From: a virus
Reading direction: 5' to 3' (one strand)
IMG/VR virus record: IMGVR_UViG_3300008448_000224
Span: 1 to 40,331 of that record
Length of the DNA stretch: 40,331 nucleotides
Below, in pieces: positions 3,094-12,672 of the stretch (positions within the stretch are counted from its first letter, which is position 1; each line of letters starts with the position of its first letter). Both the position numbers and the translations under genes were made by a program. A model generated the notes under the pieces. The model made no database searches. It saw nothing but the letters and a program-made list of their open reading frames with translations, and had not been told where the DNA came from.

Positions 3094-4032
3094 TTATCCC
3101 AGACTTGTTCTCCATTTAGGAGTTCTTACAGTAGATTTTATAAAATCCATTTTAGATGGTGATCCTGCATAAACTACTGGTATTGTTGGTCCTTTTGATT
3201 CCTCTCTAGAATTTATTTGTTGTGAAAGAGAAATAGGAGCATCTAGAGATATTTGTTGTTGCTGTTTTGTTTCTTTCTTAGAATTATCGATATTATTTTT
3301 TTGTGTTGTAGAATTGAATGTATTTGTTGTTTTCATACCATTAATATTTTTTAATGTTTCATTTTTTACAGATCCACCTAAAACCGTATTCATTGTATTT
3401 TGAATAAAATTAGAAAATTCATTCGAATCTTTTAGTGGTATAACGGCTTCATTTTCGTGCAAATAAGCAACTGTTGGTTCTTTTACAACACCACCCTTTT
3501 GTAATCCAGGAATTAAATTATTATTTTTTGTAATATTTTTTAAATTTATATTTTTATTGGAATTTTTATAAAATTCATTTGTTATATTTTTTTCTGTATT
3601 TTCGGATGGAGAAAAAAATGTTTTATAATCAATATTTAAAACTTTTTTATTTTCTTGAGTTGGTGAAAAAATACTATTTTCTGATATTTTTTTAAGCGTA
3701 GTGCTATTTGGCGAAAAATTTCTGTAATTCGTATATTGAATATTATTTACATTAGTGTTTTTATTAATATTTTTTGTATTTACTAAGGATAATTTACTAA
3801 AATTATTGTTTATAATAGACTCTAATGGTTTTAGTAATTCTTTTTTTAATGATTTTAGATTAAGTTGTGGTGTTTTTTGCTCTAATATCATTTCCTTTTC
3901 AGGAATTTTAAAACTTTCAGCATTTATATCTGTTTTGTGTATATTTTTTTCAATATTTAAAGTATCAAAAAGATTATTTAATCTATTTTTTAATTCTTCT
4001 GGTGTTTTTTTCTTAGATTTTTGTAATTTCAT
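3094..4032 (-). CDS. Asn/Lys-rich tail protein with tape-measure-type C-terminal motif
   Basis: 312 residues from ATG 4032, whose ATGA overlaps the stop of the preceding frameshifted frame. Residues 1-175 are low in complexity and rich in Asn, Lys, Ser and Thr, probably disordered or coiled (a KTPEELKNRLNNLFDTL helix near the start). Residues about 178-205 carry LQKGGVVKEPTVAYLHENEAVIPL, the GG-V-P-T...GEAVIPL motif seen near the C-terminus of many tape-measure proteins, followed by a helix. The gene sits directly after the tail-assembly-type frameshift gene, the position a tape measure holds in most long-tailed phages, yet it is short and lacks the long helical and hydrophobic segments of a full tape measure (T4 gp29 is about 590 residues). 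It could be a short tape measure, a second component of one, or a hub protein that kept the motif. Confidence 0.6.
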   Translation of the reverse strand: MKLQKSKKKTPEELKNRLNNLFDTLNIEKNIHKTDINAESFKIPEKEMILEQKTPQLNLKSLKKELLKPLESIINNNFSKLSLVNTKNINKNTNVNNIQYTNYRNFSPNSTTLKKISENSIFSPTQENKKVLNIDYKTFFSPSENTEKNITNEFYKNSNKNINLKNITKNNNLIPGLQKGGVVKEPTVAYLHENEAVIPLKDSNEFSNFIQNTMNTVLGGSVKNETLKNINGMKTTNTFNSTTQKNNIDNSKKETKQQQQISLDAPISLSQQINSREESKGPTIPVVYAGSPSKMDFIKSTVRTPKWRTSLG

Positions 4033-4199
4033 TTTCTACTCTTTTCTTGTTCTACATCAACCCTCAGTTGTTCCACATATATGTCTCTTTCCCATGGCAA
4101 CATTGTTTCCAGGTCTGTTAAATTGAATCCATAATTCTTAGTCATTATATACATTAATTCAAAATAACTTTTAAGAGATATGTGACTGAGGGTTATGTA
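4029..4199 (-). CDS. -1 frameshift extension of the gp26-like protein (GT-type)
   Basis: After a -1 slip on the T7 run (4205-4199) the reading frame is open for 56 codons to a TGA at 4031-4029. The added peptide begins YITLSHISLKSYFELMY and contains LETMLPWERDIYVEQL, a well-formed helical segment with conserved-looking aromatic and charged residues. No ATG precedes the first 15 codons of this frame. The internal ATGs at 4154 and 4145 have no Shine-Dalgarno, so the intact domain could only be made by frameshifting. The predicted fusion is 283 residues (227 shared plus 56). It resembles the G/GT arrangement of tail-assembly chaperones upstream of a tape measure. If translated alone from 4154 it would be a 41-residue peptide. 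Confidence 0.72.
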   Translation of the reverse strand, partial: YITLSHISLKSYFELMYIMTKNYGFNLTDLETMLPWERDIYVEQLRVDVEQEKSRK

Positions 4200-4205
4200 A
4201 AAAAA
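4059..4205 (-). promoter_or_regulatory. Programmed -1 frameshift signal: slippery T7 plus long-range stem
   Basis: The slippery run TTTTTTT (4205-4199) reads GAT TTT TTT ACA TAA in frame 0, so tandem Phe codons allow a -1 slip. Four bases after the run, AACCCTCAGT (4194-4185) is perfectly complementary to ACTGAGGGTT (4068-4059), a 10-bp stem closing a loop of about 116 nt. The stem starts within the frame-0 stop codon. Position and complementarity suggest a stimulatory structure; the function is inferred. Confidence 0.65.
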
Positions 4206-4879
4206 TCTTTAAGATTCTTTAAAGTTATTGATCTATTTACTCCATCTGTTGTTTGGTAAAAAATTTCTATCGGTGCTGTTGGCATATTTTCAAAGAAATT
4301 TAATATATTTTCATAGTATTTTACGGTTAAGTGATCTAAAAAGTCTACTATTTCTTCTTTTGAAAAATTAGATGCTTCTGCTTTTTCTTCTGAGCTTTCG
4401 AAGTACACGACGCAATTTGCGATTAGATCATTTACATTTCCAGTATCCTCTGGGATATCATTAACTGTTGGGTATTTTAATTTAATTTTTAAATTTTTAC
4501 CAACATCAATAATATTATTTTGTTCTTTAATTTTCAGATCTAAATTATTTAAATTTACCTCGACTATATGATTTTCTTTAGTAACCGGACATGTTATCTT
4601 TGGCGTTATAATTTCACCAACAGATTTTGCTCTTAATTTTAAAAAGCAGTACTCTACTTCAAATATTGGTATTTTTGTAAAATCGATATCAGAATAGCAA
4701 GAATTTAAAACCTCAATTATGCCATTGTAAATTTCTTTTTTATTTGAGGTTTCCTCTAATATGAGCAATTTTTTTTCTTCTTTAACCAGAAATGGTCTAA
4801 ACTTTGTTTTTATTTTACTATATGGTAAAGTTGTGATATATGTCGGTAAGGATTCTTCTAAAAGATTTTTTAAATTCAT
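4193..4879 (-). CDS. 26: Baseplate hub / tail assembly protein, gp26-like (T4_baseplate family)
   Basis: 228 residues in the unshifted frame, starting at ATG 4879 (MNLKNLLEESLPTYITTLPYSKIKTKFRPFLVKEEKKLL). This N-terminus and the block EVEYCFLKLRAKSVGEIITPKITCPVT are hallmarks of the T4 gp26-type baseplate family, proteins of about 200-250 residues needed to build the baseplate hub. The C-terminal half (LTVKYYENILNFFENMPTAPIEIFY) is helical. The gene ends KDFFT at a TAA directly after a slippery T7, where a -1 shift would give a 283-residue form; on that basis it may work like the short member of a tail-assembly-chaperone pair. It follows the tube-fold gene with a gap of three bases. The family call is firm, the assembly-chaperone role is inference. 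Confidence 0.87.
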   Translation of the reverse strand: MNLKNLLEESLPTYITTLPYSKIKTKFRPFLVKEEKKLLILEETSNKKEIYNGIIEVLNSCYSDIDFTKIPIFEVEYCFLKLRAKSVGEIITPKITCPVTKENHIVEVNLNNLDLKIKEQNNIIDVGKNLKIKLKYPTVNDIPEDTGNVNDLIANCVVYFESSEEKAEASNFSKEEIVDFLDHLTVKYYENILNFFENMPTAPIEIFYQTTDGVNRSITLKNLKDFFT

Positions 4880-4882
4880 ATT

Positions 4883-5473
4883 TTATCCATTCAATAAATT
4901 ATAAGAATGTCGAAATGCCAGTGTCAGAACAAAAGTAGTATATCCAGTATTTTCTGATGTCAATGAAATTGGTAGTAAGTTTAAAGGATACGCTTCATCC
5001 AAAAGAGTTTTTGATGTTATTGATGCGTTGTTTAATTCAGTTGCTTGTCCACCTGAAGCAAATGTTGTTATATAAACTTTACCAACATATGTAAAATATG
5101 GGGAAGCATTTTCTGTTACTGGCCTACTTGCTGTACCTCTTTGAATAATTTGATCCATCCACCCATCAAAGAAATTTTTCTCAGCAAAATCTTGATATAA
5201 AACAAATGACATTGTTATTTCATCGAATTCGTGTTGAAGTGGAACTTTTCTTTTAGTTCCCCATAAAGATACAGGTAATCCAGTATTGTAAGTTACCAAA
5301 GCTCTTTGTGGGACATTAACTTCTGATGGATATGTGGTAAAAGATCCAAATGGTGTGATAAAATCAACAACATATCTATTGGCAAACTGAACACCACCTC
5401 TATTGACAACACTATTTCTAAATTGATTTATAGATCCTGCAATAAAATCGTTAGGTATTTCTACATCAGCCAT
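4883..5473 (-). CDS. Tail tube-fold protein, gp19/gp54 family
   Basis: 196 residues from ATG 5473, overlapping the gp4 stop (TAATG). The pattern is that of T4-type tube proteins: an N-terminal segment FRNSVVNRGGVQFANRYVVDF, then NVPQRALVTYNTG, the turn WGTKRKVPLQHEFDEITMSFVLYQDFAEKNFFDGWMDQI, and a C-terminal strand pair ending in LAFRHSYNL. This beta-barrel fold forms the hexameric tail tube (gp19) and, in gp54, the first tube-like ring on the baseplate. Length fits gp19 (163 in T4, near 200 in marine relatives) better than gp54 (320), but its place among hub genes, away from a sheath gene, could suit a gp54-like tube initiator. The fold is well supported; the exact paralogue is open. Confidence 0.8.
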   Translation of the reverse strand: MADVEIPNDFIAGSINQFRNSVVNRGGVQFANRYVVDFITPFGSFTTYPSEVNVPQRALVTYNTGLPVSLWGTKRKVPLQHEFDEITMSFVLYQDFAEKNFFDGWMDQIIQRGTASRPVTENASPYFTYVGKVYITTFASGGQATELNNASITSKTLLDEAYPLNLLPISLTSENTGYTTFVLTLAFRHSYNLLNG

Positions 5474-5907
5474 TATAGTAATTCCTTTTCTGTGATAACC
5501 ACAAACTCTATTGAATTCTTTTCACAAAAAATTTTAGTGGCATCCCATTTTGCCTGATTTACTAAAAATGTCTCCATGTTCTTAGAATATGTCTTTTTTG
5601 AAATATTTTCTGTCATTACTGGTTGTTTTGTTTGTTTATATGGTTTGATTTCAACGATTAGGGTTGAAATTGATCCATCTTTGTTTTTCTTTTCAACCAA
5701 AAAATCTGGTATGTAATGGTGTAGTTGATTATCTATAGGTGATTTATATGGAATTTTGATATTTTCAAATGACCAGCGTAAAATATTCTTATTTTCATCT
5801 AAATATTTACAGAACTTCCTTTCCCATAAGGATCTACATAATATTTTCGTAGAATCGCCTATATATTTTGATACATTTTTAGGAAAAAATTTATTCTTAT
5901 AAGCCAT
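5473..5907 (-). CDS. 4: Head completion nuclease-fold protein gp4
   Basis: 144 residues from ATG 5907; a TTG three bases earlier is a less likely start. It shows the gp4 head-completion pattern: FFPKNVSKYIGDSTKILCRSLWERKFCKYLDENKNILRW, then IPYKSPIDNQLHHYIPDFLVEK and LIVEIKPYKQTKQP. The residues fit a PD-(D/E)xK nuclease: E29 in the LWER helix, P67-D68, and E86-x-K88. In T4 gp4 acts after DNA packaging, preparing the filled head for tail attachment. T4 gp4 is 150 residues. It is divergent from gp48, with only 20 bp between the start codons, and is followed on its own strand by the tube-fold gene. No Shine-Dalgarno is visible, but a TCTAAATA element lies five bases before the ATG. Confidence 0.92.
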   Translation of the reverse strand: MAYKNKFFPKNVSKYIGDSTKILCRSLWERKFCKYLDENKNILRWSFENIKIPYKSPIDNQLHHYIPDFLVEKKNKDGSISTLIVEIKPYKQTKQPVMTENISKKTYSKNMETFLVNQAKWDATKIFCEKNSIEFVVITEKELL

Positions 5908-5912
5908 CAAAT

Positions 5913-7770: not shown

Positions 7771-10700
7771 ATGTCTGGAAAATTTCCATTTGCGATTGAA
7801 TCGTTAACATCTTTAAAAATAGTTAAAAAATCAGGTGAAAGTTTATCTATTGTTCCATGGATTTCTGGCGGAACAAACCCTCTTATTTCTTTTGCTTTAA
7901 ATGAAAGTATGTTCAATCCACTTATGACTGGTACTCTTGTCATGAGAGATACTGGAGATTGGCTAAGAACTTATACTGTTAAACCAAATGATGAAATACA
8001 ATTTACTTTAAATACTAAAAGTATATCTGGTGTATTAAATAGAGATAGAAATGATTCAACAATCAAAAATTATGAATTAATTTTTGAAGTAACAAATGTC
8101 AAGAATACAATAACTGTATCATCGGATGATTTTCAAACATCTACCGAAACTATAAAAGCGTTAACAATAGAATTTATTTCTAAAAGTATTTTAAATAAAG
8201 AATTTTTAACCTCAATTCTTGGTGAAGAAAATTTTATAGGACCAATATTTTCGGAAACTTCTGATAATTTTACCTTACTTGGATCAGAATCTCCGTCTGT
8301 AAAATTAAATGGATTTAACTCTTATATTAAAGATAAATTTAAAATAGAAATAGATGGTGATAAAACATGGAATTATTGTTATTTAAAGAAAAATAACATT
8401 TCATATCCATGGGGTAAAGTGCAAGGTCAGCCGACTATTTTACAAACTTTGCAATATCTTGCGGAAAATGCTGTAAATTATGAAAATAATGCAGCAGTTA
8501 ATTATGCATTTTGGCAAGATTTGAATGGATATCACTTTAAATGTATTGATAAACTCATTAAAGAAGATGAAAATTCTGATGAAAAAGTATTTACTATAGG
8601 CGATAATCAATTTTCACCCAGTGCAATACATGCGTTTGAGACAGTCAGTGAGTTTGATAATCTTGCTTTATTAAATTCAAATATTTACTATTCTTGGTAC
8701 GAGAGAATATTACCAAACTACGCAGATCCATATCTTGACTTTATTGATACATCATTAGGTTTGACAAGACAGAATATAGTATTTGATATTAAACAAGAAT
8801 ATAATAAAATCTCTCATATAGAACAAGAATCTTTAATTCCAGAAACATTTTTCATCGATTCTGGTTTATCTTTATCACAGAGTCAACGTATTGATGATGA
8901 TGTTTATGGATTTTATTCTAAAAACAGATACAATACACCATTCCCTCAATCATGGGAATATCTTGGATTATCTGCTGATACAAGATTATCAAATGTTGTG
9001 TGGCAAAATCAATTTGATATAGATGATGAAGTTTATCCAGAAATATTATATGGATATGATAAGTTAGTTAAAAATAAACAAATTAAAAATAGAGAAAAAT
9101 ATACTAAATTAAAAAATGCTAAACGTAAATGGGAAGTATATCGTTGTTCTATTTGCTGCACCGATCAAATCGGCGGGACTGCTGATCAAGCAATTTTAAA
9201 AAATTTATCATCAGATAATCCAGATTATGTTTACTATTTTGGACCTACTGGTACATTTAAAGATTTTTCTAGTGACTATTCTATAGTTGCTGCTGGTTCT
9301 TTTTCTGATGTTGTAAATTATGATAAAGGTATTACTAATGGTAATGGATTAACTTTGTCATATGATATGAATTCATATCCATATAATCAAACAATAAGTG
9401 AATTTTTTAATCTAAAAACAGATACAGAAGATATAGATCAGACTATTAATAATACTTTGAGTAAATATGTTAATGAGTTAGATGAAATTCAAACTCTTAT
9501 ACCAAAAATAGAAGAATTTTTATCAAATGTAGATTCTTGGATTTTATCTGCTACAGAATTAGCTTATCAGAATTTAACACCCGATTTTAAGAAAACTTGT
9601 AGTAAGACACCCGATACTTATCAGGGTCCAGGTACAGGTTCTTTATGTTGTAATCGTCCTTTAAATGGATATTGTTCTATACCATTTTATGGCTATCCAG
9701 TAGCTGGCGCGACTGAGTTATATTATAAAAATGCTCCTTTTGGGTCGGGTACTTTATTGTGGAATTTTGGAACTACGACATGTGGTGTTGCTAGATTACC
9801 TTTATATGTGAATTTGCGATATGACTTGGATACTAGACCATTAGATTTTTCTGGTCACTGGGAAGTAATAATAAATCCAGAATTTTATTTCAATAATTCT
9901 GATTATTATCCATATTATGTGACGGCATTGGGTCAAAATTTAGACTGTCCAAGTTTAGTTGATGGTCCATTAGCATATGAATTACCATTTATCAAACCAG
10001 AATTTTTATATTCATGTACAAAAACAAAATTATTACGTGGCAGACATGTAACAACTTTTGAACATGGTGAGATTAAGGAATTTGATACTGTTGATTGGCT
10101 GAATGATGAGTTACGACTTGGTGTGGAAAACGGTACTATTTGGTGTGAAACATGTTTAGATCCATTAGCATTACAATTTGCTAAATTAGAATATGTGAAA
10201 GTTTTAAAAGAATTAAAATTACGAAAATTTGTTATTGATGAGCTTATAGCAAAAATAACAATATTACAAACAAAATATCGACAACTATATCAAGAATACT
10301 TAAATAGAAAAGCGTTCTTTATATCAAAGAATCCTTTTGATCCAGAAATACCAGGTAATATTTTAAATAAAAAGTCAGATTTATCTTTATTGAATATAAA
10401 ATCTATAAAGAGAAAACCTATCAGGGGTAGTAGATATGAGGTTCTTGGTAAGAGATTGGGAATTACAAGTGGTGTTTCTACTTACATCTATAATATTTAT
10501 TTTGATGATAATACATCAAGAAATATTGGTATTACTGGAAATCATCCATACTACGATCAAAAATTTAAAGGATTTACATTTGGTGCATATGCATCAAAAG
10601 CTGGATTTAATAGTTTTAAATTAGATTTTGCAGATTTAGTTTATTACGATAATGATTTAACTGTAAGAAGTATATTACCAGCAGAAATGGGGCTAGATCC

Positions 10701-12672
10701 AGTACCATCTCAGATTCCTGGATATTTAATATATGATTCTAGAACATTTACTTATCCTACAGGATCTCTGCCGGATCCAGATGGATCTATTTCTGATTAT
10801 ATCTCACCACAAACATTATCTTCCATAACTAATCAATTGAATGTATTTAAAGATGATGCCTCTAAGATACCATCTATTGAGAAAGAAAAAATAAGTTCTT
10901 ATGTCAGAATAGAATTTATAAATCCGATAGGACTTGATCGACTTGCTGATTTTCCATCTGGGTTTGTTCGTGATGCTGGTTCTGAATATTTTTTACCATA
11001 TCTAGTACAGCTGACATCCGGGCCGAATGGAAGACAAACTATACAAAATAATATTGCTATAATTGGTATGGATCCATATGGATTTGATGTTGCTATTAAG
11101 AAGAACAAAACAAAAAATAATTATTCTGATTACAAGGAATGGGGAAATTATTGGTGGTATACACCATTTAATAAATTAAAACTTTCGGCAAAAACAAAAG
11201 ATATAGATGATATGTCTCTTTGGGCAGAGACATCATTTGAAAATGAAAAAACCTACTATGAAAATAATGGCGAGTATCTTTACAATGTTGGGGAAGATTT
11301 CACGGAATTTGATAATTTTGCTGGAGCGGTGAGTCCTGTATTTATTGGACCGTCAAGAAATTATGAATATGGTGCTTTTTATCCAGTTTATTATGGAAAT
11401 GATTATTTTACATCACTAAACAAAGCAGTTGATAACATCAACAATAATTCTAAATATTATATTCCATCTGGATCTGAAGTTGTCGAGATTGATAAAATTT
11501 CAGATACAAAAACTATAAATTATTCAAAATATGGTTCTTATAATTTATTAGGATCACATTTACATTATAATATTAGAAGAAGTTGGTATGATTTTGCTTA
11601 TCCATCTAAATTATATTTTGATACTTTACTGAGTAATATAGCAAATATTAATAATTTATCAGATAGATTTAATTATATCCCAACACCAACTATAATTAAT
11701 AGTAATGATGTTATTTCTTTTTCTGGAAATGATTTTATACAAAGTTTAGAAAATAGTATATCATTAAAAGACAGTACAGCATTAAGAACATTCTTAACTA
11801 CAAATACAATTGATAATTTACATTTAAATAATATTTTTGATATAGAACAAATGACCCAAATTAAGGGGTTATCTAATTCTTCTAGTATATTTTCTGATGA
11901 TATTGAAAGATATCTGAGTGGAGATTTGTTTATATATCGACCAGGATTAGTGACATCTCAGGTTTGGAAATATGATATATTTGGTGAATCAGAATATGGT
12001 CTAACATCTCCACCAACTTTACCACCAGAATATGATCTTTTTGATAATAATTTTGCTGCTCAATTTATAGTTTTTGGTAAATCTTCTATTACAAATATAT
12101 GTAAAGAATTAGGATTGAAATGTTTAAATCCAAAAGGAAAGACTGATAATTCTAATTGCGAGCCAAATGATCCATATTGTAACTGCCCTGGTAAAAATCT
12201 AATACCAAAAGAACCAGAACCTTCTTACAAAGAACTGGCCATTGCATTTGAAGCGACCAAAGAATGTACTTTAATAGAAAAATCTCTAGGATCCGATTAT
12301 CTTGGATGTATGTTATCAGATCCAGATAATGTTGTGTCTTGCAATTGCCCAGAACAAGGTAGATATTATCCAACTTTCCTGAATACAATTCGATCAAATG
12401 CTACTTTCTACGTGACCCCACCAAAAACTCCATTGAGAAGACAAGCTCAAATGACTCTGTTCAATGCTCAACAAGCAATAATGACAGTTTTCCCAAATGA
12501 TTCTCTGAAAATTGGTGATATTATAACCGTTCTTAGAGGAACTGCTGTTGATGGAAAAGATACAGTGAATGGTAAGTGGATGATTACTGGTATCAGTAGA
12601 GTGTTCAAATCATTCAATGTTGAGATGATGGTTATAAACTTATCAAGGGATTCCATAAAAAAGAATAATTAG
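7771..12672 (+). CDS. Giant baseplate hub protein, gp27/gpD-like with large insertions
   Basis: 1633 residues, about four times T4 gp27 (391). Residues 1-270 read as a hub N-terminal domain: FALNESMFNPLMTGTLVMRDTGDWL, then ILQTLQYLAENAV and YAFWQDLNGYHFKCIDKL, as in phage hub and late-control (gpD) proteins. The last 110 residues match a hub C-terminus: FYVTPPKTPLRRQAQMTLFNAQQAI, FPNDSLKIGDIITVLRG and NGKWMITGISRVFKSFNVEMMVINLSRDS. Between them lie more than 1100 residues I cannot assign, Tyr- and Asn-rich and apparently beta-structured, with cysteine clusters near 459 (CSICC), 610-675 and 1463 (NCEPNDPYCNCPG), and a helical stretch near 800-850 (LQFAKLEYVKVLKEL). The hub would form the trimeric base of the tube; the insertions may reach the baseplate periphery or carry enzymatic or adhesive domains. 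No lysozyme motif was recognised. Confidence 0.78.
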   Translation: MSGKFPFAIESLTSLKIVKKSGESLSIVPWISGGTNPLISFALNESMFNPLMTGTLVMRDTGDWLRTYTVKPNDEIQFTLNTKSISGVLNRDRNDSTIKNYELIFEVTNVKNTITVSSDDFQTSTETIKALTIEFISKSILNKEFLTSILGEENFIGPIFSETSDNFTLLGSESPSVKLNGFNSYIKDKFKIEIDGDKTWNYCYLKKNNISYPWGKVQGQPTILQTLQYLAENAVNYENNAAVNYAFWQDLNGYHFKCIDKLIKEDENSDEKVFTIGDNQFSPSAIHAFETVSEFDNLALLNSNIYYSWYERILPNYADPYLDFIDTSLGLTRQNIVFDIKQEYNKISHIEQESLIPETFFIDSGLSLSQSQRIDDDVYGFYSKNRYNTPFPQSWEYLGLSADTRLSNVVWQNQFDIDDEVYPEILYGYDKLVKNKQIKNREKYTKLKNAKRKWEVYRCSICCTDQIGGTADQAILKNLSSDNPDYVYYFGPTGTFKDFSSDYSIVAAGSFSDVVNYDKGITNGNGLTLSYDMNSYPYNQTISEFFNLKTDTEDIDQTINNTLSKYVNELDEIQTLIPKIEEFLSNVDSWILSATELAYQNLTPDFKKTCSKTPDTYQGPGTGSLCCNRPLNGYCSIPFYGYPVAGATELYYKNAPFGSGTLLWNFGTTTCGVARLPLYVNLRYDLDTRPLDFSGHWEVIINPEFYFNNSDYYPYYVTALGQNLDCPSLVDGPLAYELPFIKPEFLYSCTKTKLLRGRHVTTFEHGEIKEFDTVDWLNDELRLGVENGTIWCETCLDPLALQFAKLEYVKVLKELKLRKFVIDELIAKITILQTKYRQLYQEYLNRKAFFISKNPFDPEIPGNILNKKSDLSLLNIKSIKRKPIRGSRYEVLGKRLGITSGVSTYIYNIYFDDNTSRNIGITGNHPYYDQKFKGFTFGAYASKAGFNSFKLDFADLVYYDNDLTVRSILPAEMGLDPVPSQIPGYLIYDSRTFTYPTGSLPDPDGSISDYISPQTLSSITNQLNVFKDDASKIPSIEKEKISSYVRIEFINPIGLDRLADFPSGFVRDAGSEYFLPYLVQLTSGPNGRQTIQNNIAIIGMDPYGFDVAIKKNKTKNNYSDYKEWGNYWWYTPFNKLKLSAKTKDIDDMSLWAETSFENEKTYYENNGEYLYNVGEDFTEFDNFAGAVSPVFIGPSRNYEYGAFYPVYYGNDYFTSLNKAVDNINNNSKYYIPSGSEVVEIDKISDTKTINYSKYGSYNLLGSHLHYNIRRSWYDFAYPSKLYFDTLLSNIANINNLSDRFNYIPTPTIINSNDVISFSGNDFIQSLENSISLKDSTALRTFLTTNTIDNLHLNNIFDIEQMTQIKGLSNSSSIFSDDIERYLSGDLFIYRPGLVTSQVWKYDIFGESEYGLTSPPTLPPEYDLFDNNFAAQFIVFGKSSITNICKELGLKCLNPKGKTDNSNCEPNDPYCNCPGKNLIPKEPEPSYKELAIAFEATKECTLIEKSLGSDYLGCMLSDPDNVVSCNCPEQGRYYPTFLNTIRSNATFYVTPPKTPLRRQAQMTLFNAQQAIMTVFPNDSLKIGDIITVLRGTAVDGKDTVNGKWMITGISRVFKSFNVEMMVINLSRDSIKKNN

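Follow-up and report, generated by a model that had tools for sequence, protein, structure and literature searches.

The gp26-like gene in the stretch of viral DNA analysed here (the window; 40,331 nucleotides, positions 1 to 40,331 of IMG/VR virus record IMGVR_UViG_3300008448_000224) appears to be a tail assembly chaperone (TAC) locus of the T4-like type, at which a -1 ribosomal slip would give a 228-aa short form and a 283-aa long form, with a predicted RNA helix downstream of the slip site probably stimulating the slip. Judging from sequence comparisons, we put the probability of this reading at roughly 0.93. Two features go beyond the first-pass annotation of this DNA: the relationship to gp51 of phage T4 and, as the strongest addition, the helix that immediately follows the slip site on its 3' side.

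The slip site and the reading frames

The gp26-like gene, which would encode the short tail assembly chaperone (TAC-N), or baseplate hub protein, occupies positions 4193 to 4879 of the minus strand (228 aa) and has the 3' end ...CTT AAA GAT TTT TTT ACA TAA, with the stop codon at 4195-4193. The run of seven T residues constitutes a slippery heptamer, T_TTT_TTT, with two Phe codons (4205-4199, minus strand). A slip into the -1 frame on this run would lead to an extension (TAC-C, 'gp51' of cyanophages; 4029 to 4198, minus strand) consisting of 56 codons after the Phe-Phe pair and a stop, which reads FF-YITLSHISLKSYFELM...SRK; the full continuation after the slip is ..FF-YITLSHISLKSYFELMYIMTKNYGFNLTDLETMLPWERDIYVEQLRVDVEQEKSRK, with the stop at 4031-4029. 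This stop overlaps the ATG (4032-4030, in the context ATGA) of a 312-aa open reading frame. The predicted long frameshift product (TAC-NC, 283 aa, 4029 to 4879, minus strand) would be the equivalent of T4 gp51. In the window, the extension has no ATG, GTG or TTG ahead of codon 16 and no Shine-Dalgarno sequence ahead of its first ATG, which is codon 16 after the Phe-Phe pair. The first-pass annotation had described the end of the gp26-like frame, the slip on the T7 run into a frame open for 56 codons and overlapping the next ATG, and the beginning of the extension before any usable ATG and without a Shine-Dalgarno sequence, and all of this is found in the sequence.

Conservation of the slip site and selection on the extension

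Related loci were retrieved through the gp26 or the extension protein, that is, independently of the slip site. A heptamer in the gp26 frame is present at the junction in 179 of 186 loci, a count that includes overlapping fetches of some contigs and does not equal the number of independent genomes; the forms are T_TTT_TTC (130 loci), T_TTT_TTT (38) and T_TTT_TTA (11). Among the seven loci missed by the filter, two (L140 and L031) have the slip site on inspection and four (L017, L026, L027 and L186) are cut off. The gp26 stop codon lies 6-8 codons farther downstream in some loci, where the slip site and the -1 frame are unmoved and still in frame. A conserved zero-frame heptamer of the X_XXY_YYZ form followed by an open -1 frame is what is expected of programmed -1 frameshifting. 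Conservation of the slip site in homologues, which the first-pass annotation had put forward as a check on its proposal, is thus borne out by T_TTT_TT(C/T/A), and its central idea, a -1 frameshift producing a pair resembling the G and GT proteins, gains strong comparative support as to mechanism.

One relative differs at the junction. In Pseudomonas phage Cygsa01 (L193), a gp51-like frame follows and overlaps the gp26-like gene (752-1662), and the junction, AGC ATT TTC ACC TAA, is devoid of the T-run heptamer, which implies a different shift site or mechanism in this phage.

In 11 close relatives of the window, codons 2-18 of the extension show a pN/pS of 0.13 and no stops in the -1 frame; the other two frames over the same codons show values of 4.5 and 1.3 and contain stops. 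Almost all of these codons are located upstream of the first ATG. This bears on the possibility that the extension is a separate small protein, made from its own start codon or by re-initiation after the gp26 stop, as suggested by GenBank records that list a separate 'gp51' in S-PM2, P-SSM2, phiM9 and HTVC008M and by the presence in many cyanophages of an ATG a few codons past the gp26 stop (codon index 2-3 in 25 of 87 clusters of related loci). The position of the first ATG, however, varies widely among lineages, from codon index 2 to 53, and T4 gp51 bears the same segment fused to a gp26-like domain. Since purifying selection acts ahead of any start codon in the window's clade, it argues strongly against an independently started extension there, and such a gene was rejected for this clade; as a general account of the extension, separate translation is highly improbable.

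Relationship to T4 gp26 and gp51

The assignment of the locus to the T4-like TACs is supported by profile searches. The 228-aa protein contains PF12322 (T4_baseplate, E=1.5e-47), the N-terminal domain of this family, and matches phrog_150, baseplate hub (E=2.7e-49). The fused 283-aa product covers positions 5-278 of the 282 positions of phrog_150 (E=1.8e-55), and the gp26-like protein alone covers 5-233. The extension by itself matches phrog_634, 'baseplate hub assembly catalyst' (E=1.2e-16). When the extension profile was compared with 86 T4 ORFs, gp51 came first (E=5e-6; the next had 0.08), so the homologue search with the extension that had also been proposed in the first-pass annotation identifies it as homologous to the C-terminus of T4 gp51. 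The AlphaFold model of the gp26-like protein alone has a pLDDT of 91.9 and resembles models of viral baseplate hub proteins. As to the TAC-N fold, a Foldseek search of the PDB with this model returned the HK97 chaperone structures 2ob9 and 3fgx among a few plausible matches, with weak scores (E about 1, probability 0.35-0.75).

T4 gp26 (208 aa) and gp51 (249 aa) are transcribed divergently. Since both contain PF12322, and the extension is present in T4 on gp51 only, fused to the gp26-like domain, T4 has separate short and long genes. The window and the cyanophage, pelagiphage and Schizotequatrovirus records that were inspected have one gene followed by a -1 frame. The T4 gene 26 (L034, 5803-6429) ends in GAG TTC TTT GAG, where the Phe-Phe codons are kept and the slippery run is broken, as would be expected after a split into two genes.

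A predicted RNA helix downstream of the slip site

The 149 nucleotides that follow the slip site in the window fold with a predicted minimum free energy of -42.3 kcal/mol, which corresponds to z-scores of -4.9 against dinucleotide shuffles and -5.2 against synonymous-codon shuffles. The predicted fold is an interrupted helix of 26 bp in which +1 to +26 pairs with +110 to +145, enclosing about 83 nucleotides. Its segments, all on the minus strand, are, in order, a basal helix 0, ACAU (4195-4198) with AUGU (4054-4057); helix 1, AACCCUCAGU (4185-4194), which begins 4 nucleotides past the slip site, with ACUGAGGGUU (4059-4068), about 116 nucleotides downstream; helix 2, CACAUA (4179-4184) with UAUGUG (4074-4079); and helix 3, UCUCUU (4173-4178) with AAGAGA (4084-4089). 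The basal helix is predicted from the fold and is probably melted while the ribosome sits on the slip site; helices 1 to 3 are predicted from the fold together with covariation, and helix 1 contains a compensatory G-C/C-G change at offsets 6-137. A search of Rfam with the region around the slip site gave no match. In the window's clade the predicted 3' stimulator lies at a spacer of 5-9 nucleotides, which is not so in every lineage.

The covariation was scored in 17 sequences picked on kinship and independently of pairing. In these sequences, 79% of alignment cells are paired in the window structure, compared to 31-48% when the structure is slid by 1-3 columns, and the covariation score exceeds those of all 500 shuffles and of the slid controls. 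Not all members of the window's clade retain this helix: L010, L011 and L015 have an altered 3' arm and a potential alternative pairing of CUUAGUCA with UGACUAAG at +61, and L008 has a local hairpin instead.

For comparison across lineages, the related loci were grouped at 80% nucleotide identity into 87 clusters. A stem starting at +3 to +10 beats synonymous-codon shuffles at p<0.05 in 45 of them, and the combined excess has a Fisher p of 3e-31 if clusters are treated as independent, a value that is too small because the clusters are related. A position control gave significant stems in 48% of clusters when the 5' arm started at +3 to +10 and in 1-12% when it started farther downstream. The remaining 42 clusters, L021 and S-B68 among them, have no significant stem in the synonymous-shuffle test, and the helix is therefore not universal. 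In the window's clade the 3' arm is found at about +137-140; another clade has it at about +112-114, and in further phages, the P-SSM2-like and S-PM2-like ones among them, it lies at +24-45 and forms a local hairpin. The two groups with a long-range helix are separate on the gp26 tree and differ in their pairings and in the Ser codon family used.

A second instance of covariation is found in the group with the 3' arm at about +113, for which the protein and the Ser codon family were the sole selection criteria. All 12 clusters that have Leu CTT have Glu GAA, and of the 18 that have CTC, 11 have GAG (12:0 against 7:11; Fisher p=0.0006), the covarying positions being synonymous third positions approximately 99 nucleotides apart. 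A tree-corrected test of one covarying pair, in which about 4 independent pairs are concordant and none is discordant (p=0.125), agrees in direction but has too few independent changes to reach significance. It could be argued that the stem arises secondarily from constraints on the protein sequence and codon use of the extension, as the arms of the stem encode the conserved residues LSHIS, PWER and EQLR. Yet the strong excess of stems persists against synonymous shuffles in which the protein and codon usage are held fixed, the covariation involves two synonymous third positions, and the two clades achieve their helices through different pairings and a different Ser codon family, which makes a by-product very unlikely.

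A conserved helix may also serve another purpose, such as limiting translation of the downstream gene or affecting mRNA stability, with the slip site alone being sufficient for frameshifting. Around half of the clusters keep the slip site without a significant stem, and the 3' arm lies inside the extension, near the next gene, as this possibility would have it. However, it is the 5' arm that is fixed, at +3 to +10, whereas the 3' arm moves among +24-45, about +113 and +137-140, and this suggests that the functional end of the helix is the one next to the slip site. We consider another role for the helix unlikely, and favour the reading in which this covarying, lineage-shifting element is probably a stimulator of the slip, as far as can be judged from its pattern of conservation.

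About 25 of the 87 clusters (e.g., L036, L037 and L029) have a Shine-Dalgarno-like element, UGGAGGG, 9-15 nucleotides ahead of the slip site; it is absent from the window, whose version of the LEGL motif is LKNL. The element exceeds synonymous shuffles only weakly (Fisher p=0.003) and anticorrelates with stem strength (rho -0.23, p=0.03, with relatedness ignored); it is possible that UGGAGGG is a second stimulator of the dnaX type. The upstream element and the conserved helix at a canonical spacer of 5-8 nucleotides fit slipping by ribosomes better than transcriptional slippage, in which the polymerase would add or drop a U at the poly-T run and the long form would be translated from altered mRNA. 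Homopolymer runs, such as the seven T residues of the window, can make a polymerase slip, but the commonest form of the site is T6C (130 of 179 loci), a short run, and transcriptional slippage is scarcely credible as the source of the long form.

Proposed mechanism

The sequences show the slip site, the open frame, the selection on the extension, the homology of the extension to gp51 of T4, and a helix that is conserved and covaries; from these we infer that slipping takes place, its rate, what the helix does and that the products are chaperones. The majority of ribosomes would stop at TAA and produce the 228-aa short form. A minority would slip back by one nucleotide on T_TTT_TTT, the two tRNA-Phe pairing anew with UUU, and would translate 56 further codons to produce the 283-aa long form equivalent to T4 gp51. 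The RNA helix, which starts 4-6 nucleotides past the slip site and pairs about 130 nucleotides downstream, probably stimulates the slip, and the rate of slipping would set the ratio of the short to the long form. By analogy with lambda gpG/gpGT, the two forms together may coat the tape measure and bring tail-tube subunits to it, the short form presumably providing the coat and the added domain of the long form recruiting the tube protein.

We lean, by a small degree, towards a broader proposal for T4-like phages outside the T4 group, in which the short-to-long ratio would be controlled by an evolving RNA element. This element would be anchored 3-10 nucleotides past the poly-T site, with its distal arm re-sited several times among lineages (local hairpin, about +113 or about +138), would sometimes be replaced by an element of the UGGAGGG type, and would have disappeared completely when the ancestors of T4 divided the two forms between two genes.

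Comparison with known systems

The abstract of the 2022 study of T4-like TACs by Vladimirov and colleagues reportedly describes frameshifting as a conserved trait of several groups of T4-like phages and names T4 genes 26 and 51. A 2016 review describes G-T frameshifting as widely conserved, with T4 as the exception (PMC5009743). The T4-like TACs were identified as the gp26/gp51 genes by Vladimirov, Gautam and Davidson (2022, Virology 566:9-15), a study known here through the papers that cite it: the PRFect paper (PMC10885494) refers to it for those T4-like phages that carry a short gene and a separate long one, and the 2025 paper on phage Adele (PMC12846349) gives it as the source for poly-T -1 signals in the TAC-N genes of T4-like phages. 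According to these two papers, the core finding is already known, and the suggestion of the first-pass annotation that frameshifting in T4-like gp26 genes might be undescribed does not stand. The window's locus belongs to the same gene family and, by the citing papers, has the same poly-T -1 signal; the uncultivated lineage and the long-range helix seem to be additions. We found no description of a 3' helix at a T4-like TAC slip site in the literature searched, which includes the 2022 study as represented in its citations, and to that extent the long-range 3' RNA helix appears to be undescribed.

In lambda (gpG/gpGT; Xu, Hendrix and Duda 2004; PMC5009743), low-level -1 slipping lets one gene, directly upstream of the tape measure gene, yield chaperones of two lengths. 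The window's locus would work in the same way, ahead of a gene that is a putative tape measure; the proteins belong to different families. BYDV, red clover necrotic mosaic virus and the IS3411 ALIL pseudoknot likewise have a slip site followed by an RNA element that is completed by distant pairing (PMC5009743). Those elements are apical-loop/internal-loop pseudoknots with the distal partner kilobases away, or 44-104 nucleotides away in IS elements, whereas the window's helix is a plain nested interrupted helix that closes about 80-145 nucleotides within coding sequence and whose arm relocates between lineages. A dnaX-type site comprises an upstream Shine-Dalgarno-like element, a slip site and a 3' stem, and the UGGAGGG-bearing clusters together with the significant 3' stems of about half of all clusters recall this arrangement; the window's lineage differs in being without the upstream element and in having a poly-T heptamer rather than A_AAA_AAG.

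Annotation of the long form and neighbouring genes

None of the public records inspected joins the gp26 frame and the extension. Cyanophage, pelagiphage and vibriophage records list the extension as a 'gp51' gene of its own or leave it out; in the records of L029, L032, L189 and L192 and of Synechococcus phage ACG-2014i (L188), it is given as a separate 'gp51/baseplate hub assembly catalyst' or, in ACG-2014i, omitted. As a result, the long chaperone is missing from predicted proteomes. Because the frameshift itself is a known strategy, the value of the present observations lies in this annotation gap and in the many natural variants of the predicted stimulator that accompany the slip site, among them long-range helices in which compensatory changes are seen. 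This large series offers a way to test how the shape of a stimulator sets the rate of bacterial frameshifting, and also why T4 gave up frameshifting for two genes.

The gene that begins at the stop of the extension (3094 to 4032, minus strand, 312 aa) is tape-measure-like, with weak PHROG tape-measure matches (E=2.4e-5 and 5e-4). In the loci from which lengths were drawn (the window, L010, L011, L018 and L116), the ORF after the extension is shortest in the window's close clade (298-344 aa), longer in sister lineages (444-482 aa) and longest in L010 and L011 (at least 939 aa), a range that might be expected of a tape measure tracking tail length. L010 and L011 have also lost the long-range helix. 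Immediately upstream of the gp26-like gene is a tail tube (gp19-like) gene (4883 to 5473, minus strand; phrog_45, E=2.1e-12), and positions 5473-5910 of the minus strand encode a gp4-like head completion protein with a TnsA-like endonuclease domain (PF08722, 1.5e-19). On the plus strand, a 1633-aa ORF (7771-12672), for which a partial match to the tail protein family phrog_350 is the only one, is flanked by a gp53-like gene on one side and the next tail genes on the other.
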